NCBI RefSeq assembly: GCF_016919385.1
Contig: NZ_CP070351.1
Location: 4,030,001-4,094,000 of the forward strand
Length of the DNA: 64,000 bases
Source: Gordonia sp. PDNC005
GTDB lineage: Bacteria > Actinomycetota > Actinomycetes > Mycobacteriales > Mycobacteriaceae
Direction of reading: 5' to 3'
Each line of letters opens with the position of its first letter. The stretch's first letter is position 1. A model generated the notes under the pieces. That model made no database searches and was not told where the DNA came from. It saw nothing but the letters and a program-made list of their open reading frames with translations. Positions 21,513-32,061 of the stretch are shown here, one piece after another. The position numbers were made by a program, and so were the translations under genes.

Positions 21513-21592
21513 AAGAGCTAGAACTCTAAGTGTTTCCTGAGAACAAACGCAAGGGGTGGTGCGCGAGCAGGCTGTGAATGACGTGGGCCACA

Positions 21593-22882
21593 ATGGTTCC
21601 CATGGGTTCGAACATCGGGCGTGTGCGGCAGAACGAGATCTATCGAGCGGGCATCCACGGGCGTGGCCCGGCGGTCCCCACCGACTTCGCGACGCTCGAA
21701 GAGCGCGCGCAGGCGGTGATGTCCAAGCGTGGGTGGGCCTACATCGGCGGCGGTGCCGGTGAGGGGCGCACGATGGACGCGAACCGGTCTGCACTCGACC
21801 GATGGGCGATCGTGCCGCGAGTGCTTCGCGACACGAGCAACCGATCGCTCGAGACTGAGCTCTTCGGGCAGACGCTGCCCGCGCCGGTGCTGTTCTCCCC
21901 GGTCGGCGCGGGAGCGCTCGCTCATGACAAGGCGGACATCCACATCGGACATGCCGCGGCCGAGCTGGGGCTTCCCTACATCTTCTCCAATCAGGGATGC
22001 GCCCCGATGGAAGACGTCGCGGCGGAGATGGAGTCGGTTCGTCCGGGGGCGCCGCGGTGGTTCCAGCTCTACTGGTCCACCGACGACCGGCTGGTCCGGA
22101 GTCTCGTGGCCCGTGCGGAGGCGATGGGCGCCGCGGCGATCGCGGTCACACTCGACACCACGATGCTCGGCTGGCGTCCGCAGGACCTGAATCTCGGTTC
22201 GCTGCCGTTCGCGCGAGCCGAAGGCATCAACCAATACACGTCCGATCCGACATTCTGGGAGATCGTCGCCGAGCGACTCAAGGGCGCAGTGTCGGAGAAG
22301 CCCGAGGTGAGCCTCGGAGCGGTGAAGACGCTGTTCTCCATCGCACGGAACGTGCCCGGCGAACTCCGCCGGAACCTCACCGCACCCGAGCCGCGAGCTG
22401 CAGTCGAGACCTTCCTGGACATCTACTCGCGACCGTCGTTGAACTGGGACGACATCATGACGCTGAGAGGGATGACAAGCCTGCCCATCGTCCTCAAGGG
22501 TGTGTTGCATCCCGATGACGCCCGCAAGGCGGTCGAGCTGGGCATCGACGGGCTGATCGTCTCGAACCACGGCGGACGCCAGGTGGACGGGTCCATCTCG
22601 TCGACCGATGCGCTGGTCGACGTCGTCGACGCGGTGAAGGGACAGATCAAGATCCTCGTCGACTCCGGCTTCTACACCGGATCGGACGTGTTCAAGGCGC
22701 TCGCGCTCGGCGCAGACGCCGTCTGCATAGGTCGCCCCCACATGTACGGGCTAGCACTCGCCGGGGCAGATGGCGCGCGCGAAGCGGTTGCGAACATCGT
22801 CGCCGAACTCGACCTCACTCTCGGCCTGTCGGGGCACACGGATGTGACGACCCTCGATCGCTCTGCTCTGAAGCGGCTGTAA
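21593..22882 (+). CDS. FMN-dependent alpha-hydroxy-acid oxidase (lactate 2-monooxygenase-like)
   Basis: About 429 residues. A TIM-barrel FMN enzyme with the signature SNHGGRQVDG (catalytic His and substrate Arg). Conserved FSPVGAGALAHDKAD and KGVLHPDDARKAVELGIDGL blocks also match. The long N-terminal segment and insertion loops resemble lactate 2-monooxygenase of mycobacteria, which decarboxylates lactate to acetate, but other 2-hydroxy acids are possible. ATG 21593 or 21602 may be the start. It is divergent from the CopD-like gene by 80 bp and converges with azlD, five bases away. Confidence 0.85.
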   Translation: MVPMGSNIGRVRQNEIYRAGIHGRGPAVPTDFATLEERAQAVMSKRGWAYIGGGAGEGRTMDANRSALDRWAIVPRVLRDTSNRSLETELFGQTLPAPVLFSPVGAGALAHDKADIHIGHAAAELGLPYIFSNQGCAPMEDVAAEMESVRPGAPRWFQLYWSTDDRLVRSLVARAEAMGAAAIAVTLDTTMLGWRPQDLNLGSLPFARAEGINQYTSDPTFWEIVAERLKGAVSEKPEVSLGAVKTLFSIARNVPGELRRNLTAPEPRAAVETFLDIYSRPSLNWDDIMTLRGMTSLPIVLKGVLHPDDARKAVELGIDGLIVSNHGGRQVDGSISSTDALVDVVDAVKGQIKILVDSGFYTGSDVFKALALGADAVCIGRPHMYGLALAGADGAREAVANIVAELDLTLGLSGHTDVTTLDRSALKRL

Positions 22883-24527: not shown

Positions 24528-24605
24528 CTCGGTCATCTCGCCGTGGTTGAGCCCAGGGCGCGCGGAACGCTGGCCGGGCGGAGCCGCGGATCGCAGGATC
24601 AGACC

Positions 24606-26024
24606 ATGACCCGACAGATCCGCCTGAACGCCTTCGACATGAACTGCGTCGCCCACCAGTCGCCCGGTCTCTGGCGGCATCCCGACGACGAGTCGTGGAA
24701 CTACAACACTCTGGACTATTGGGTGGAACTGGCGAAGCTGCTGGAACGTGGTCGATTCGACGGTTTGTTCATCGCCGACGTCCTCGGGACGTACGACGTC
24801 TACTCCCAGACCGATGAGGCGGCCATCCGTCAGGGCGCGCAGATCCCGGTCAACGACCCGTTGCTGCTGGTCTCGGCGATGGCGCACGCGACGGAGAACC
24901 TCGGGTTCGGCATCACGACCGGAACCGGGTTCGAGCATCCCTATCCCTTCGCCCGTCGAGTGTCGACGCTCGATCACCTCACCCGCGGGCGCATCGGCTG
25001 GAACGTCGTCACCGGGTATCTGCCGGCCGCCGCGCGCAACATGGGGGACGACCGGCTGCTCGACCACGACGCACGCTACGACCACGCCGACGAGTACCTC
25101 ACGGTGCTGTACAAGCTCTGGGAGGGATCGTGGGAAGACGACGCGGTACGACGCGATCGCGAGTCCGGCGTGTTCGCCGACCCGGCGAAGGTCCACCACA
25201 TCGGACATCGTGGTGAGCACTTCACGGTGCCCGGCATTCATCTCGCGGAGCCCTCGACGCAGCGGACACCGGTGATCTATCAAGCAGGCGCGTCCACTCG
25301 GGGAAGCCGGTTCGCGGCGGAGAACGCCGAGGCGATCTTCGTCGCCGCGCCGACCAAGACGATCCTGCGAGATGTCGTCGCCAAGACACGGGACGCGCTC
25401 GTCGCCGCAGGTCGTGGCCCCTATGACGCCCGGATCTACACCCTCGCCACCGTGATCACCGACGGCACGCCGGAGGCGGCGCGGGAGAAGGCCGCGCAGT
25501 ATCGGCGCTTCGCATCAGACGAGGGTTCGCTTGTTTTCATGTCGGGGTGGATGGGCATCGACCTGTCGCGATACAGCCTCGACGACCCGATCGGCGCCGT
25601 GGAGTCGAATGCGATCCAATCGGCTGTGGCGGCGTTCTCTCAGGCAGACGAGGACGGTCGAGCGTGGCGGGTTCGCGACGTGGCCGCCTGGGGCGGCATC
25701 GGGGGAATGGGGCCGGTGCTCATCGGGTCCGGTGACGAAGTCGCGGAAACGCTGATCGATTGGGTGGACGACACCGACGTCGACGGGTTCAATCTCGCGT
25801 ATGCGGTCACGCCGGGATCGTTCCGCGACGTAGTCGAACACGTGGTGCCCGCCCTCGACGCACGTGGCGCCTACCAGTCGGGGTATCAGCCGGGCTCGCT
25901 GCGCAACAAACTGTTCGGCCGAGGCGACCGCCTGCCAGACAATCATCGCGGTGCCACGTTCCGTGTCGGAGGGAGTGCGTCGACGATCGACGACTCGGCG
26001 CGCCGAGTGGAGGCCGGCGTCTGA
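24606..26024 (+). CDS. NtaA/SnaA/DszA-family flavin monooxygenase
   Basis: 472 residues. A luciferase-fold FMNH2-dependent monooxygenase related to dibenzothiophene-sulfone monooxygenase DszA and nitrilotriacetate monooxygenase. Diagnostic blocks are GRIGWNVVTGY, LDHDARYDHADEYL, LWEGSW, FADPAKVH and VIYQAGAS. These enzymes need a separate flavin reductase, and none is adjacent. Sequence resemblance to DszA is partial, so desulfurisation should not be assumed; alkane-sulfonate, sulfone or amine substrates are possible. It is 78 bp after the cupin regulator and convergent with the MpaB-type gene, two bases apart. Confidence 0.85.
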   Translation: MTRQIRLNAFDMNCVAHQSPGLWRHPDDESWNYNTLDYWVELAKLLERGRFDGLFIADVLGTYDVYSQTDEAAIRQGAQIPVNDPLLLVSAMAHATENLGFGITTGTGFEHPYPFARRVSTLDHLTRGRIGWNVVTGYLPAAARNMGDDRLLDHDARYDHADEYLTVLYKLWEGSWEDDAVRRDRESGVFADPAKVHHIGHRGEHFTVPGIHLAEPSTQRTPVIYQAGASTRGSRFAAENAEAIFVAAPTKTILRDVVAKTRDALVAAGRGPYDARIYTLATVITDGTPEAAREKAAQYRRFASDEGSLVFMSGWMGIDLSRYSLDDPIGAVESNAIQSAVAAFSQADEDGRAWRVRDVAAWGGIGGMGPVLIGSGDEVAETLIDWVDDTDVDGFNLAYAVTPGSFRDVVEHVVPALDARGAYQSGYQPGSLRNKLFGRGDRLPDNHRGATFRVGGSASTIDDSARRVEAGV

Positions 26025-26026
26025 GG

Positions 26027-26896
26027 TCAGACCAGCGGACGTCCGGTCCGCATCCGCCATCGCACGTCGGCCAACAGCAGATTGAACGGGAACTTCCGCA
26101 TCGGGGCAGGCATGAGCCTCACTCCGACGCGCAGGACGGCATTGTGTGCGTCGAAGATCCGCTTCTGCGCGGGCGTCTGTGTGACGCCGAGTTTGTCGCG
26201 GAACTCTGGCGGCAGGTATCCGACAGTCAGCAGTTCCGACCACGGGCCCATGATCATCGACACCGGTTTGGCGGCGAATTTGAGGCGGACCAGGGACTTC
26301 AGGTAGCTGCGGATCACATCGTCGAGCTCCATGCTCGCAACCGTCTCATTCCAGTACACCTCGAAGTCGGCCCTGGTGGCCGGCCACATCTCGGGAGGCA
26401 TCTGCAGGGTGGTGCCCATGATCGCGCCTTGACGGTATGCCTCCTCGGTGATGACCGACGGATCGCCGTAGAGGCGGATCATGTCCTCCCAGCCTCGGTA
26501 GAGGCATGCTGCGACCCAGAGCTGGAGCTTGGCGTCGAACGCGTTGTATTTGACCGGGCTCGAACTGGACGATCGAACGTGAGCGTGCGACTTGTTGACC
26601 GCGTGGCGGTACTTCCGGCGCAGTTCGGCGTCGCCCATGGCGGCGACGGCGAGATACGTGAGGGTCGTTCGTGTCCGCTTGACCGGGTGCTTGAAGAGGT
26701 TGCCCGATTCGACCTTGCTCTCGTAGACGCCATAGCCGACCGCCGGCAGGGTCAGTTGCATGATCACGTTGGCTGGACCCGCAAGCAGGGCTGGGCCGAG
26801 CAGGGTCAGATCGTTGATCTGCTGCTCGTCCAGCTCCGCGCGCCTGGTGCGAGGCATCGGATCCGCCTGAAACGACTCGATCGGCTGTGCTGTCAT
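26027..26896 (-). CDS. MpaB/DUF2236 (oxygenase-type) family protein
   Basis: 289 residues of the family that includes rubber oxygenase Lcp and the fungal MpaB oxygenase. Seen: LLAGPANVIMQLTLPAVGYGV at the start, NKSHAHVRSS with a conserved His, and AKLQLWVAACLYRG. In most relatives I know this last segment reads WVHAT, so a usually conserved His appears replaced by Ala. There is no signal peptide, unlike secreted Lcp. ATG 26896 follows GGGGAG. It is divergent from a TetR gene that probably regulates it. The reaction and substrate are unknown. Confidence 0.78.
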   Translation of the reverse strand: MTAQPIESFQADPMPRTRRAELDEQQINDLTLLGPALLAGPANVIMQLTLPAVGYGVYESKVESGNLFKHPVKRTRTTLTYLAVAAMGDAELRRKYRHAVNKSHAHVRSSSSSPVKYNAFDAKLQLWVAACLYRGWEDMIRLYGDPSVITEEAYRQGAIMGTTLQMPPEMWPATRADFEVYWNETVASMELDDVIRSYLKSLVRLKFAAKPVSMIMGPWSELLTVGYLPPEFRDKLGVTQTPAQKRIFDAHNAVLRVGVRLMPAPMRKFPFNLLLADVRWRMRTGRPLV

Positions 26897-26979
26897 GACA
26901 CTCCCCAAAGTGATAACGCGTGTTTCCTGTTATTGATTCAACGCCCGGCGATCCCCGGTGTCAAGGGGTGGAGTGTTAT
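26897..26979. promoter_or_regulatory. Divergent promoter with ATAAC...GTTAT inverted repeat
   Basis: The 83-bp spacer between the MpaB-type gene and the TetR gene holds the arms ATAAC and GTTAT separated by 12 bases within an otherwise AT-richer stretch (about 26915-26938). This is the likely operator of the TetR regulator, but the arms are short and the call is inference. Confidence 0.4.
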
Positions 26980-27621
26980 ATGGACGGTGTGACCAAGCCT
27001 GGTGAGACCGCGAGCGAACTGCGCTCCTACGGCGGGGAGGCGGGCGATGCTCGTGTGGCTCGTCGGCGCGCGGCGCTCATCGATGCGAGTCTCGACATGC
27101 TCACGGAGTCGGACGTCGGCACTGTCACGGTCCGCGGCATCTGCGCTCGTGCGGGCCTCACCCCGCGGTACTTCTATGAGAGTTTCGACAACGTCGACGC
27201 CCTCGCTCGTGCGACATACGACGGTGTGATCGCGGAGATCGCCGAGCGGGCCGCTGACGCGTTCGCGCATGGCGGCGACGCGCGAGGGAAGGTTCGGGCG
27301 GCGGTCGAAGCGATCGTCGACGTGATCGAATCCGACCCGCGGACCGGCAAGCTGATCTTCTCCGACACGCTCCGCAGTCCGGTTCTCGCCGGCCGACGAG
27401 CCGATTCTCTGCAGTTGTTCGCGAACCTCACGTCGGAGTCGGCGGCCCAGGTGGCTCGTGTCGGGCAGGCCGATGAGACGATGGCCGCAGCGCATTTCCA
27501 GGTGGGCGGCCTCGGTCGCGTCCTCGCCTCGTGGACGGAGGGTCGCCTCGACCTCGATCGTGACCGACTCGTCGCGGTGTGTGTGCGCATGATGCTGCCG
27601 ATCGCGGCGGAGCGGAGCTGA
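26980..27621 (+). CDS. TetR-family regulator
   Basis: 213 residues. The helix-turn-helix lies at about 45-75 (GTVTVRGICARAGLTPRYFYESFDNVDAL), with an Ala-rich all-helical ligand domain after it. ATG 26980 has GGAG a suitable distance upstream. It is divergent from the MpaB-type gene and only four bases before the next TetR gene, so two repressors are made from one transcript. It most likely controls the MpaB-type gene; its ligand is unknown. Confidence 0.85.
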   Translation: MDGVTKPGETASELRSYGGEAGDARVARRRAALIDASLDMLTESDVGTVTVRGICARAGLTPRYFYESFDNVDALARATYDGVIAEIAERAADAFAHGGDARGKVRAAVEAIVDVIESDPRTGKLIFSDTLRSPVLAGRRADSLQLFANLTSESAAQVARVGQADETMAAAHFQVGGLGRVLASWTEGRLDLDRDRLVAVCVRMMLPIAAERS

Positions 27622-27625
27622 CTCG

Positions 27626-28243
27626 ATGACTCGACCGACCACCGGTTCGTGGCGCGACTACGGCGTAGTCCATCTCCCGGCGCCACTCCGGGCTGCGCTC
27701 GAGGCTTTCATGGAGCACGGCTACCACGGCACATCGGTCCGTGACATCGCATCGCGTGCCGGCTTGTCGGTACCCGGTCTGTATCACCACTACCCGTCCA
27801 AGCAGTCTCTTCTTCAAGGGCTGCTCGAGTTGACGATGACCGATCTCCTTCGCCGGTCCGCGCAGGCGATCGAGGAGGCGGGTGACGATCCGGTGACGCA
27901 GTTCGACGCGGTCGTCGAATCGTTGCTGCGGTTTCACATGTTCCGTCGAGAGCAGGCGTTCGTCGGATCGACCGAGCTCCGGAGTCTGGACGACGACTAT
28001 CGGCCGACGTACATCGGGCACCGCACGCGCCAGCAGCGGATGGTCGACGAGATCGTTCTCTCCGGAGTCCGGTCGGGTGTGTTCGTCACAGTCGACCCCA
28101 AAGGTGCGGCTCGGGCCGTCGCGTCCATGTGTGTCGGCGTCTCGACCTGGTACCGAGTGGACGGTGAACTCGGTGCAGACGACCTGATCGCGCGGAACCT
28201 CGAGTACGCCCGCGCGATCGTCGGTTACCGTCCGACCGATTGA
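27626..28243 (+). CDS. TetR-family regulator of the downstream acyl-CoA operon
   Basis: 205 residues. N-terminal helix-turn-helix with HGYHGTSVRDIASRAGLSVPGLYHHYPSKQSLL, a TetR C-terminal domain thereafter. It is followed, 62 bp later, by a perfect 20-base palindrome and then the dehydrogenase-kinase-SDR operon on the same strand. That makes it the best candidate repressor of those genes, probably released by an acyl-CoA. Binding specificity is inferred from position only. Confidence 0.87.
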   Translation: MTRPTTGSWRDYGVVHLPAPLRAALEAFMEHGYHGTSVRDIASRAGLSVPGLYHHYPSKQSLLQGLLELTMTDLLRRSAQAIEEAGDDPVTQFDAVVESLLRFHMFRREQAFVGSTELRSLDDDYRPTYIGHRTRQQRMVDEIVLSGVRSGVFVTVDPKGAARAVASMCVGVSTWYRVDGELGADDLIARNLEYARAIVGYRPTD

Positions 28244-28305
28244 GTGTTCGGCGTTCCGCGGATTGTCCTTGACGTGACGTTGGTCTCGTGGAACAGTGAT
28301 CGCGT

Positions 28306-28325
28306 GACCGAGCGAGCGCTCGGTC
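28306..28325. promoter_or_regulatory. Perfect palindromic operator, TetR type
   Basis: GACCGAGCG and CGCTCGGTC form nine-base arms around a two-base centre (AG). The site lies 19 bases before the ATG of the acyl-CoA dehydrogenase gene and after the TetR gene. Size and symmetry suit a TetR dimer pair. The match is direct; its cognate protein is inferred. Confidence 0.75.
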
Positions 28326-28344
28326 AGAAACGAGGATTGTGCTC

Positions 28345-29547
28345 ATGACGATCGATCTGTCCTATCGTCCCGAGGTAGTCGAGTTGGTGGCTCGGACCGA
28401 ACTCTTCATCAACGAACACGTCCTTCCGGTGGAGAACGAGTTCCGTGGCGACGTGACGGCAGCGGGAGGTGACGACCTCCGTCGTGACCTGAACGCCAAG
28501 GCCAAGGCCGCCGGTGTGTTCGCTCCGCACGCGCCTGTCGAGTTCGGCGGGCTGGGCCTGTCGATGTCCGATCGTGCACCGGTGTTCGAGGCGGCCGGAC
28601 GGTCGACGTTCGGGCCGGTGGCTCTGCACATCGGTGCTCCCGACGAGGGCAACGTCCACATGCTCGCGCACATCGCAGACGACCGCCAGCGTCACGAATA
28701 CCTGGCGCCGCTCGCGGCCGGCGACGTCCGCAGTGCGTTCGCGATGACCGAGCCGTCACCGGGCGCGGGCGCCGACCCGGACGCCCTGTCGACCACCGCT
28801 GCACGAGTCGACGGCGGGTGGAAGATCAACGGGCGTAAGCGATTCATCACCGGCGCCGACGGCGCGGGCTTCTTCATCATCATGGCGCGCACATCGGGTG
28901 AACCGGGCGACCGCGGCGGTGCGACGATGTTCCTCGCACCCGGCGACGCCGAGGGCATCAGCGTCGACCGCCACATCCACACCACTGACAAGTCGATGAT
29001 CGGCGGTCACTGCGAGATGACGTTCACCGACGTCTTCGTCCCGGACGCCGACGTGTTGGGCGAGGTCAACGAGGGGTATCGCTACGCACAGGTCCGTCTC
29101 GGTCCTGCCCGCATGACTCACGTCATGCGATGGATGGGCTCGGCGGTTCGCGCACAGAAGGTCGCGCTCGACTACGTCGAGCAGCGGCAGGGTTTCGGCG
29201 GACGGCTCGCCGACCTCGGCATGATCCAACAGCTCGTGGCCGACAACGAGATCGACCTCGCCGCCGCTCGAGCGCTCCTAGTTCGAGCGTGTTGGGAACT
29301 GGATCAGGGCGCCCACGCATCGGACTCGACGTCGATCGCGAAGACGTTCGGGGCCGAGGCGTTCTCGCGTGTGGTGGACCGCAGCATTCAGATGTGCGGC
29401 GGTCTGGGCGTCTCGGAGGACCTGCCGCTGGCTCGTCTCGCCGACGAGTTGCGTCCGTTCCGGATCTACGACGGTCCTTCCGAAGTGCACCGGTGGGCGA
29501 TCGCCAAGCGTGCTGTCGGACGTGTCCGCAAGGAGCGACAGGCATGA
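28345..29547 (+). CDS. Acyl-CoA dehydrogenase, ACAD10/11-like
   Basis: 400 residues. FAD-contact block FAMTEPSPGAGADPD, flexible KRFITGADGAG, LGPARMTHVMRWMG in the C-terminal domain and IYDGPSEVHRWAIAKR at the end. These resemble the dehydrogenase domain of animal ACAD10/ACAD11 and bacterial LvaC-type proteins, which act after phosphorylation of a 4-hydroxyacyl-CoA to give the enoyl product with loss of phosphate. It overlaps the kinase gene by four bases (ATGA). The 4-hydroxyacyl-CoA role is inferred from the gene pair, not from this chain alone. Confidence 0.85.
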   Translation: MTIDLSYRPEVVELVARTELFINEHVLPVENEFRGDVTAAGGDDLRRDLNAKAKAAGVFAPHAPVEFGGLGLSMSDRAPVFEAAGRSTFGPVALHIGAPDEGNVHMLAHIADDRQRHEYLAPLAAGDVRSAFAMTEPSPGAGADPDALSTTAARVDGGWKINGRKRFITGADGAGFFIIMARTSGEPGDRGGATMFLAPGDAEGISVDRHIHTTDKSMIGGHCEMTFTDVFVPDADVLGEVNEGYRYAQVRLGPARMTHVMRWMGSAVRAQKVALDYVEQRQGFGGRLADLGMIQQLVADNEIDLAAARALLVRACWELDQGAHASDSTSIAKTFGAEAFSRVVDRSIQMCGGLGVSEDLPLARLADELRPFRIYDGPSEVHRWAIAKRAVGRVRKERQA

Positions 29548-30560
29548 GCGATCATTCCGGGCTCGCGGCAGCGGATCTGCGCCGACTGCTTGAAAGCAAC
29601 GGCGTCGACGTGATCGGCGACCTGCGGATCGACCTGATCAGCGGCGGCCGATCCAATCTGACGTTCGACGTCCGCGACGATGTGCACCATTGGGTGGCGC
29701 GCCGCCCACCGATGGGCGGTCTCACCCCCTCTGCGCACGACATGGAACGCGAATGGGCGGTCACCTCGGCGCTCGCTCGGACCGGCGTGCCTGTCGCGCC
29801 GACCGTCGCGATCGACCGGTCGGGAGACGTGATCGGTGCGCCGTGCACCGTCGTCGAGTTCGTCGACGGTGACGTGATCCGTTCGTCGGACGACCTCGCG
29901 CGCTTCTCCGACGCGCAGGTGGACGCATCGATCGATGCGCTGGTCCGGACGCTCGCCGACCTGCACGCCGTCGACTACGCGGCCGTCGGGCTCGCCGAGT
30001 TCGGGCGCCCGGAGGGCTTCGCGGCGCGTCAGATCAAGTTGTGGGCCAGGCAGTGGGGGATCGTCAAGACCCGCGAGCTCGACGACGTCGACCGGCTCGT
30101 CGGAATCCTGTCCGACCGAGTGCCTGCCGCCGCACGGAACACGATCGTGCACGGCGACTTCCGCATCGACAACACGATCCTCGCGCCGGGCGACCCCGGT
30201 CGGGTCGCCGCAGTCGTCGACTGGGAGCTGTCGGCGCTCGGCGATCCGATCACCGACGTCGCGCTGATGTGCGTCTACCGCCAGCCGGTGTTCTCGTCGG
30301 TTCTCGGCTTCGACGCCGCGTGGACCAGTGATCGTCTGCCCGACGCGGACTCGCTCGCCGAGCGTTACGCGCAGGCGACCGGAGCAGACCTCGGCGACTG
30401 GGCGTTCTACCTCGGCCTCGCCAATCTGAAGCTCGGCGTCATCGCCGAAGGCATCACCCACCGTGCACTTCAGGGCGGATCGTCCGGCGCGGCGGGCGCG
30501 GAGAAGGCCGCCGAGGCAACCGCATCATTCATCGCACAGGGACTGGAGGCCGTGAAATGA
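29544..30560 (+). CDS. APH-type kinase, ACAD10/11-like phosphotransferase
   Basis: 338 residues of the aminoglycoside-phosphotransferase fold. Seen: GGRSNLTFDV nucleotide loop, catalytic loop HGDFRIDNTIL, and metal-binding VVDWELSALGDPITDVA, which is the form found in the kinase domain of ACAD10/ACAD11 and LvaA rather than in drug-modifying enzymes. The likely reaction is ATP-dependent phosphorylation of the hydroxyl of a 4-hydroxyacyl-CoA. It overlaps both neighbours by ATGA, so the three products are translationally coupled. Antibiotic resistance is unlikely in this context. Confidence 0.87.
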   Translation: MSDHSGLAAADLRRLLESNGVDVIGDLRIDLISGGRSNLTFDVRDDVHHWVARRPPMGGLTPSAHDMEREWAVTSALARTGVPVAPTVAIDRSGDVIGAPCTVVEFVDGDVIRSSDDLARFSDAQVDASIDALVRTLADLHAVDYAAVGLAEFGRPEGFAARQIKLWARQWGIVKTRELDDVDRLVGILSDRVPAAARNTIVHGDFRIDNTILAPGDPGRVAAVVDWELSALGDPITDVALMCVYRQPVFSSVLGFDAAWTSDRLPDADSLAERYAQATGADLGDWAFYLGLANLKLGVIAEGITHRALQGGSSGAAGAEKAAEATASFIAQGLEAVK

Positions 30561-31297
30561 CCGCACGCAAGGTGGCGCTGGTGACCGGAGGGTCGCGCGG
30601 AATCGGCGCGGCAGTCGCAAACCGGTTCGCCAGCGAGGGGTGGGACCTGACGATCAGCGCTCGCGGCCAGGAGGCGCTCGACGCGCGTGCCGATCAACTC
30701 CGCGAGCACGGCGGCCGAGTGGTGTCGGTGGCTGCAGATTCCACCGACGAAGACGCCGTCGGCGCACTGATCGCTCGTCACGTCGAAGAGTACGGCCGGA
30801 CCGACGCACTCGTCGTCAACGCAGGCATGGGTCTCAAGGGTGGTTTCGGTGACTTTCCTGTACGGCGCTTCGACCGGTTGTACCAGGTCAACGTGCGTGC
30901 GCCGTTCCAGTTGATGCAGGGCCTTCTGCCGAGCCTTCGGTCGGCGGTCGACGCGGCCGGGGCGGCGAAAGTCATCGCGATCGCGTCCATCACCGGTGTG
31001 TACCCGGAGCCGGAGATGGCGGCGTACGGCGCCACGAAGGCGGCCCTGATCTCGATGTGCGAGACGTTCAACCTCGAGGAGTCCGTGAACGGCATCTCGG
31101 CGACGTCGATCGCGCCCGGCTACGTCGACACCGACATGTCGGAGTGGACGAAGGGGGAGGGCGCGATCCCCGGTGACGAGATGATCTCCGCCGAGGACGT
31201 CGCCACCGTCGCGTACGCGGTCTCGCAGCTCTCGCGCTGGGCCGTCCTCCCGCAAGCGGTCCTCACCCGCCCCGGCCCGAACCTGCATCGCGCCTGA
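30557..31297 (+). CDS. Short-chain dehydrogenase/reductase
   Basis: 246 residues. Rossmann NAD(P) loop TGGSRGIGAAV, NAG segment VVNAGMG, catalytic Ser in IASITG and the YGATK motif (Tyr, Lys) are all present. Last gene of the TetR-ACAD-kinase-SDR unit, overlapping the kinase gene by four bases. It probably oxidises or reduces a hydroxyacyl or ketoacyl intermediate of the same pathway. Which step it catalyses is not shown by sequence. Confidence 0.88.
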   Translation: MTARKVALVTGGSRGIGAAVANRFASEGWDLTISARGQEALDARADQLREHGGRVVSVAADSTDEDAVGALIARHVEEYGRTDALVVNAGMGLKGGFGDFPVRRFDRLYQVNVRAPFQLMQGLLPSLRSAVDAAGAAKVIAIASITGVYPEPEMAAYGATKAALISMCETFNLEESVNGISATSIAPGYVDTDMSEWTKGEGAIPGDEMISAEDVATVAYAVSQLSRWAVLPQAVLTRPGPNLHRA

Positions 31298-31307
31298 GCG
31301 CCCGCGG

Positions 31308-31399
31308 CGCTGCTCCTCGAGCGTGAGCGCTCGCCGTTCCTTGAGCGCGCTCTCTGTTCCTTGAGCGTCATTCCTGCTCCTTGAGCGGAGTCGAAAGGT
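31308..31399. repeat. Repeated CTTGAGCG elements ending in the 988-1065 arm sequence
   Basis: Four spaced copies of a C(T/C)TGAGCG or TCGAGCG core lie here, the last extended to TTGAGCGGAGTCGAAAGGTC. That extended form matches the left arm of the inverted repeat at 988-1065. The region separates the convergent SDR and histidine phosphatase genes. Confidence 0.7.
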
Positions 31400-32061
31400 C
31401 AGCGGAACGAAAGGATCCCGTCGGAGGCCAGGTGACCGTGCTCGTTGACGGACACGACGGTGAGGCCGCTTCGCCCTGACACGATCTTGGTGACGGACGC
31501 ATTCACGAACGTCCTCGACACCGCGGGCCATCCCGCGGGCGGAACGCCCCACAGTTGTGACACGAGCAGTCCGATGGTTCCTGCGGACGACGTGATGAGC
31601 ACGTTCTGGCCCGATCCGGCGAGTTCGGCGGCACGCTGCGATGCGGCGTGTGTGCGGGCGAGGAACTCGGCGAAGGTCTCGTCGGCGGGCTGGGTTCCGG
31701 CGATCCACGCGTCGAGCCCGGCGTCGAGCACCTTCTGGTACGCGGCGCGGTCGGCGAACAGGTCGGCCGCCGCCGTCATGAGTTCGGCGGGGAGCTCGTA
31801 CTCGTTCCAGTCTGCGTCCACCTGGTGATCCGGTCGGGTGCCGAATCCTTCGAGGACGCAGGTCAGCGTGTCCCGTTGGCGCGGGAGGTCGCCGGAGATC
31901 GCGGCGTCGAAGGTCGGGACGATGCGGGCGAGGAGCTCTCCGGTGCGCCGGGCCTGCGCGAATCCGAGGTCGGTGAGTCCGGGGCCGGTCCCGTCGGTGC
32001 TGCCGACGCCGTAGGCGTGCGCGGGTGCTTGACCGTGACGGACGAGGTAGATGGCGCCCAT
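31399..32061 (-). CDS. Histidine phosphatase family protein
   Basis: 220 residues. The catalytic motif LVRHGQ is at residues 6-11, with supporting residues in SGDLPRQRDTL and a second histidine region near SSAGTIGLL. The second half of the usual SHG motif reads SSAGT, so the typical catalytic second His looks replaced. Members include phosphoglycerate mutase-like enzymes and small-molecule phosphatases; specificity cannot be called. It is divergent from the leader peptide/ROK unit and convergent with the SDR operon. Confidence 0.82.
   Translation of the reverse strand: MGAIYLVRHGQAPAHAYGVGSTDGTGPGLTDLGFAQARRTGELLARIVPTFDAAISGDLPRQRDTLTCVLEGFGTRPDHQVDADWNEYELPAELMTAAADLFADRAAYQKVLDAGLDAWIAGTQPADETFAEFLARTHAASQRAAELAGSGQNVLITSSAGTIGLLVSQLWGVPPAGWPAVSRTFVNASVTKIVSGRSGLTVVSVNEHGHLASDGILSFR

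Follow-up and report, generated by a model that had tools for sequence, protein, structure and literature searches.

The phosphorylation of a hydroxyacyl-CoA followed by phosphate elimination is known from two parallel routes, used for levulinic acid in Pseudomonas putida and for 4-hydroxy fatty acids in mammals. In P. putida KT2440 the genes form the lvaABCDE operon, in which LvaC is described as acting on 4-phosphovaleryl-CoA and LvaB is reported as required (PMC6692424), and a related levulinate cluster belongs to P. citronellolis LA18T. The mammalian counterparts are ACAD10 and ACAD11. According to the model of ACAD11 given in PMC12440821, R626, H634, and R637, which are absent from conventional acyl-CoA dehydrogenases (ACADs), hold the phosphate, R631 is a general residue that orients the substrate, and D753 is the catalytic base; Ala or Leu substitutions at R626, H634, and R637 were the most disruptive of those described there.

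The stretch analysed here, referred to as the window, comprises 64,000 nucleotides (nt) of Gordonia sp. PDNC005 (contig NZ_CP070351.1, positions 4,030,001 to 4,094,000, forward strand) and contains an operon of ACAD, kinase, and short-chain dehydrogenase/reductase (SDR) genes. In all likelihood it is an Lva-type operon for catabolism under TetR control, whose products would phosphorylate a hydroxyacyl-CoA and then eliminate the phosphate. It represents a new pairing of known parts, namely an LvaC-type ACAD with an ACAD10/11-like kinase, its own TetR regulator, and a conserved, catalytically altered phosphatase-fold companion. A literature search covering titles and abstract openings found no prior description of such an operon in actinobacteria. 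The features of the locus are as follows.

27626–28243, forward strand: TetR-family regulator, probable local repressor (Pfam TetR_N and TetR_C_24)
28269–28297, forward strand: possible promoter, recognised by eye, with TTGACG and AACAGT 17 nt apart
28305–28326, no strand assigned: operator-like inverted repeat TGACCGAGCG-AG-CGCTCGGTCA, perfect 10-nt arms separated by 2 nt
28345–29547, forward strand: homologue of acyl-CoA dehydrogenases, LvaC type, which probably eliminates phosphate from a 4-phosphoacyl-CoA (Pfam ACAD domains, R251/R256/H259/R262/D376, tree)
29544–30560, forward strand: APH-fold kinase with ACAD10/11-type features, probable 4-hydroxyacyl-CoA kinase (Pfam APH, HGDFRIDN, D205/N210/R69/R162)
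30557–31297, forward strand: classical SDR, which may reduce a 4-oxoacyl-CoA as LvaD does (Pfam adh_short, TGGSRGIG, S144/Y157/K161)
31399–32061, reverse strand: histidine-phosphatase-fold protein with RHG kept and the second catalytic His replaced by Ser (TSSAG; Pfam His_Phos_1)

The locus resembles lvaABCDE in having an LvaC-type ACAD, a kinase, and an SDR in one operon, and its ACAD carries the same signature residues; however, the kinase is not of the LvaA type, LvaB (DUF6285) is missing, and the operon contains no ligase. The P. citronellolis cluster (L162) likewise combines a kinase, a histidine phosphatase, an LvaC-type ACAD, and an SDR, but its phosphatase has both catalytic His residues, and its kinase is of the LvaA type and accompanied by DUF6285. 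As for mammalian ACAD10 and ACAD11, the likeness lies in the kinase (32% identity) and in five identical ACAD residues. In contrast to ACAD11, which is a fusion of kinase and ACAD, the window has two genes with a 4-nt overlap, and the ACAD domain of ACAD11 falls in another clade (32% identity). The coupling of the three genes by ATGA overlaps, claimed in a preliminary description of this DNA, is borne out by open reading frame coordinates and Pfam, with overlaps at 29544 (ACAD/kinase) and 30557 (kinase/SDR). The ACAD start is the ATG at 28345, with an in-frame GTG at 28339.

Regarding the ACAD active site, the printed alignment and script counts place R251, R256, H259, R262, and D376 of the window protein opposite the phosphate-elimination residues of mouse ACAD11, the catalytic Asp replacing the usual Glu. 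This signature (R, R, H, R, D) is invariant in alignment A1 and complete in all 30 genus loci, which come from 30 of the 59 Gordonia genomes. It is also complete in 25/25 matches from the phylum sample, which were fetched by whole-protein search and not chosen by motif; they are, however, those relatives that score highest against the window protein. The same result for all 80 named loci holds partly by construction and is not independent evidence, because the patterns of the locus scan contained part of those residues. Among the conventional ACADs of the same genome, none of eight has the signature; these are the best-scoring 8 of its 26 other ACAD matches. The closest named match to the window ACAD among those listed is from G. 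spumicola (92% identity), and nearer records may be missing.

The position of this protein among signature ACADs was assessed with an IQ-TREE phylogeny of 64 sequences. Support of 100/100 sets the 56 signature proteins apart from the 8 conventional ACADs, among which the program warns of long branches. The window ACAD lies in a 36-row LvaC clade (98/87) together with the proteins of L143 and L162, while mouse ACAD11, 4hr3, and the ACAD of a second set in the same genome form a separate 19-row clade (99/95); L186 remains unplaced. Thus, the LvaC type and the ACAD10/11 type of ACAD fall into distinct clades. Identity values agree with the tree, being 51% to LvaC of L143 and 32% to mouse ACAD11. 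The preliminary description had called the dehydrogenase ACAD11-like and used "ACAD10/11-type" in its title; tree and identity reject this label for the ACAD, and it is kept for the kinase.

All comparisons with LvaA, LvaC, and LvaD use the P. putida-group copy in L143 (P. peradeniyensis) and not the KT2440 record. This locus has a sigma-54 type regulator (by eye), kinase, DUF6285, ACAD, SDR, and CoA ligase, which is the lvaR-ABCDE order. It was taken as an lva operon because of this order and because the identities between L162 and L143 (ACAD 78%, kinase 58%, SDR 68%) parallel those printed for LA18T and KT2440 (LvaC 78%, LvaA 59%, LvaD 67%; PMC6692424). The ACAD10 and ACAD11 domains are given in PMC11342911 as 62% and 56% identical to LvaC, whereas the LvaC of L143 shares 34% identity with the corresponding part of mouse ACAD11. 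The other P. citronellolis signature ACAD (L189) reaches 57%. The printed values fit this other ACAD type; they may refer to a different sequence or a different measure.

The kinase contains VVDWELSALGDP and HGDFRIDN and keeps the ACAD10/11 kinase residues, namely the catalytic D205, N210, R69 beside the alpha-C Glu, and R162 in the RQ segment. The assignment of R69 is less sure, since by chain count the ACAD11 Arg beside Glu is residue 84, while the paper says R86. A tree was built from 64 kinases, 59 of them from loci, after two of the 61 kinase-bearing loci (rows shorter than 200 amino acids) had been dropped. Kinases of the LvaA kind make up a long-branched clade of 11 rows (100/100). The window kinase is not among them and groups with the ACAD11 kinase in a set of 32 rows, at a support (93/91) below the starred level. 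The earlier suggestion of a kinase of the ACAD10/11 and LvaA form therefore stands only in its first half: tree and residues support the ACAD10/11 type, and the LvaA type is contradicted by 24% identity and by the position outside the LvaA clade. Of the 11 LvaA-clade kinases, 10 have DUF6285 (PF19802, the LvaB kind) in their locus, as opposed to none of the 48 other locus kinases. It occurs in 11 of the 80 named loci, the eleventh of which (L136) has no row in the kinase tree. Judging from the trees and the DUF6285 distribution, LvaC-type ACADs are not tied to one kind of kinase, and LvaB accompanies the LvaA type.

Conservation of the pair was followed at several levels. An orthologue of the window kinase is present in 59/59 genus genomes, and ACAD and kinase are adjacent in all 30 genus loci, with distances from stop to start of about −8 to +99 nt. 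Of the 80 named loci, 61 have a kinase within 4 kb, and contig ends truncate some of the loci. With E 1e-85 as the limit, 192 of the 301 genomes in the family sample (22/31 genera) have the ACAD; with E 1e-70, 46 of the 396 genomes in the phylum sample do. The proposed function extends the phosphorylate-and-eliminate route into actinobacteria with named orthologues.

The SDR is less regular. It is present in 16/30 genus loci (one of them cut by a contig end) and absent in 14/30; similarly, among 20 Gordonia stretches read downstream, it is found in 9 and absent from 11. Where present, it may reduce a 4-oxoacyl-CoA by analogy with LvaD, a function that would not be constant in the genus.

A second set was found in the same genome at G000:C1:73.5–77.0 kb (L001, L012), consisting of an SDR, a MaoC-like gene, a kinase, and an ACAD10/11-type ACAD with the motifs HHCMR and ADGPDEVHK. 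Like the window, it combines a kinase with a signature ACAD, but it differs in the MaoC-like gene and in the ACAD, which is only 34% identical to that of the window; the two kinases are 42% identical. This second ACAD, referred to as type B, is present in 57/59 genus genomes. LvaC-type and ACAD10/11-type sets therefore coexist in one genome.

Taken together, active-site residues, trees, and conserved pairing strongly support the earlier proposal that the kinase phosphorylates a 4-hydroxyacyl-CoA and the ACAD eliminates the phosphate. In the predicted sequence of events, the SDR, where present, would reduce a 4-oxoacyl-CoA to the 4-hydroxyacyl-CoA, as suggested by LvaD. The APH-fold kinase, whose key residues are kept, would then phosphorylate the 4-hydroxyl of the acyl-CoA with ATP. 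At the third step the ACAD flavin and Asp376 would take the alpha proton, and the phosphate held by R251, H259, and R262 would be expelled to give a 2-enoyl-CoA; here the residues are seen in the alignment, and the chemistry, with no net redox change, is that expected from ACAD11 and LvaC. The 2-enoyl-CoA would enter beta-oxidation. Levulinyl-CoA or 4-hydroxyvaleryl-CoA is just one candidate substrate; the preliminary description suggested that lactones or 4-hydroxy acids might be used. As a source of 4-hydroxyacyl-CoA, oleate hydratase was also considered (the 10-hydroxystearate route), and PF06100 has no match in the PDNC005 genome, so this route lost its simplest support.

Several results weigh against this pathway. 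The operon contains no CoA ligase, and the literature search found no activity, expression, or substrate data for the actinobacterial group. In 19/80 named loci the surrounding 4 kb yielded no kinase. DUF6285 (PF19802) has no match in the PDNC005 genome and none in three named Gordonia loci (L107–L109). The kinase is only 24% identical to LvaA of L143 and 32% to the ACAD11 kinase domain, which weakens the assignment of the hydroxyl to carbon 4. Finally, the SDR is 32% identical to LvaD over 190 residues, which is lower than the 35% between LvaD and the SDR of the second set.

The hydroxyl position is also the point on which the strongest alternative differs. It keeps the phosphorylate-and-eliminate chemistry and assigns it to another acyl-CoA in place of straight 4-hydroxy acids, either one with the hydroxyl at another carbon or a branched, aromatic, or steroid side-chain acyl-CoA. 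The two sets side by side in the genus suggest different substrates, and the motif flanks differ between them (HVMRW and YDGPSEVHRW in the window, HHCMRA and ADGPDEVHK in the second set). However, the 4-phosphovaleryl-CoA enzyme LvaC belongs to the same clade (PMC6692424), and its phosphate-holding residues are identical to those of the window protein. Such a substrate is considered rather doubtful. Far less probable is an ordinary acyl-CoA dehydrogenase beside a kinase acting on something unrelated. The window ACAD and kinase do match only the general ACAD and APH families of Pfam, both of them large superfamilies, but the signature, the tree position, the Asp in place of Glu, and the adjacency in 30/30 genus loci contradict this explanation. 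An aminoglycoside (antibiotic) phosphotransferase, suggested by the APH fold and a weak match to the NCBIfam APH(3') model, can practically be discarded given a score of 24.1 bits against a curated equivalog cut-off of 205, the operon context, and the nearest solved chains, which are 3dxp, 9o56 (deposited as an aminoglycoside phosphotransferase, by family name), and ACAD11.

As for regulation of the proposed 4-hydroxyacyl-CoA operon, the TetR gene upstream of it (27626–28243) is confirmed by both Pfam domains, as opposed to the sigma-54 type regulator of the lva operon in L143. A TetR orthologue is located near the ACAD on the same strand in 28/29 genus loci, and the PDB sequence relatives of the protein include KstR2. 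The perfect 20-base palindrome noted in front of the operon needs correction: it has two perfect 10-nt arms, but the AG spacer splits them, and an operator in the form of an unbroken 20-mer is rejected. Within the window alone its significance is weak, because an 18-mer form is matched with at most one mismatch in 15/100 shuffles, although the real site has none. Across the genus the core CCGANCGNNCGNTCGG occurs within 150 nt 5' of the ACAD with no mismatch in 25/30 loci and with one mismatch in 5/30, whereas only 0.03% of shuffled upstream sequences reach zero mismatches and 0.45% reach one. Such conservation in 30/30 genus loci is not expected of a chance site. A regulon of this operator was considered, but the 4.26-Mb genome has only 5 copies of the core, and the pattern read backwards is absent. 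In many genus loci TTGAC is seen by eye at a position similar to that of the possible promoter. Judging from the conserved site and gene, TetR is probably a repressor that would bind the inverted repeat near the transcription start and be relieved by a substrate or an acyl-CoA.

The preliminary description missed the histidine-phosphatase gene, which in Gordonia is linked to the kinase more constantly than the SDR is. In the window it lies about 100 nt beyond the SDR on the opposite strand, and its product belongs to histidine phosphatase branch 1 (Pfam 84.8 bits, cut-off 21.7) with RHG present. It is found within 4 kb of the kinase in 20/20 Gordonia stretches (from 20 of the 59 genomes), 5 times on the same strand, and only 13–20 nt after the kinase in L209, L214, and L215. 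For other genera of the family, 20 of the 39 matching genomes were compared, namely those with matches of E 1e-37 or better and ACAD coordinates. Phosphatase and ACAD share a contig in all 20, at a distance of up to 5 kb in 15, up to 10 kb in 17, and up to 25 kb in all 20; 18 weaker matches (1e-31 or poorer) were left out of this comparison. In G064 (L252) the kinase and the phosphatase genes are direct neighbours that converge and touch, and no ACAD was found in the 11.5 kb analysed there. By eye, no histidine phosphatase is among the listed open reading frames of the 3.7-kb second-set locus.

According to the alignment, the second catalytic His is replaced by Ser in 24/24 rows (window, 20 Gordonia stretches, L108, L109, and L111), and a count gives 30/30 for the window and L223–L251, a set that partly overlaps the first. 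This His is present in CobC and in the cluster phosphatases of L130, L162, L167, and L172; L171, which comes from a distant bin and has an LvaA-type set, also shows Ser. A similar case is ACAD10, whose phosphatase-fold partner (HAD) has an incomplete active site, although HAD and histidine phosphatases are unrelated folds. The HAD domain is described in PMC11342911 as having an incomplete DxD motif and negligible phosphatase activity and as restraining the kinase. By analogy, the histidine-phosphatase-fold protein may restrain the kinase of the operon, or it might limit or repair the phosphorylated intermediate. The retained RHG His could also allow a degree of phosphatase activity. Such a partner may explain how cells avoid a build-up of 4-phosphoacyl-CoA. 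A more specific scheme, put forward tentatively and judged unlikely, makes it a dedicated kinase brake convergent with the ACAD10 HAD, with LvaB as a different, LvaA-specific partner and unrelated partners acquired several times.

A somewhat better chance, still clearly short of even, is given to the simpler explanation that the phosphatase is an unrelated neighbour kept close only by conserved gene order. It is convergent to the operon in the window and is detected at E 1e-15 in only 49/151 family genomes, compared with the frequency of the ACAD at E 1e-85 given above. Also, six named relatives (L110 and L112–L116) showed no copy of it within 4 kb, and at least 6 of the 18 weaker-match genomes (G061, G065, G068, G091, G094, and G111), with relatives at E 1e-19 to 1e-27, lack an ACAD at E 1e-85. 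On the other hand, conserved gene order alone does not fit well with the proximity to the kinase in all 20 Gordonia stretches in either orientation, with the distances in other genera, with the pair in G064, where the ACAD is missing from the region, or with the histidine phosphatases of Pseudomonas lva-type clusters.

Further upstream of the operon lie an FMN-dependent dehydrogenase (21578–22882, forward) and an NtaA/DmoA-type flavin monooxygenase (24603–26024, forward), with no operon link shown. Just upstream of the TetR gene are another TetR gene (26920–27621, forward) and a homologue of MPAB/Lcp-type oxygenases (26027–26908, reverse). Rubber cleavage products could end as levulinyl-CoA, and a link between the operon and this Lcp-type neighbour is conceivable.

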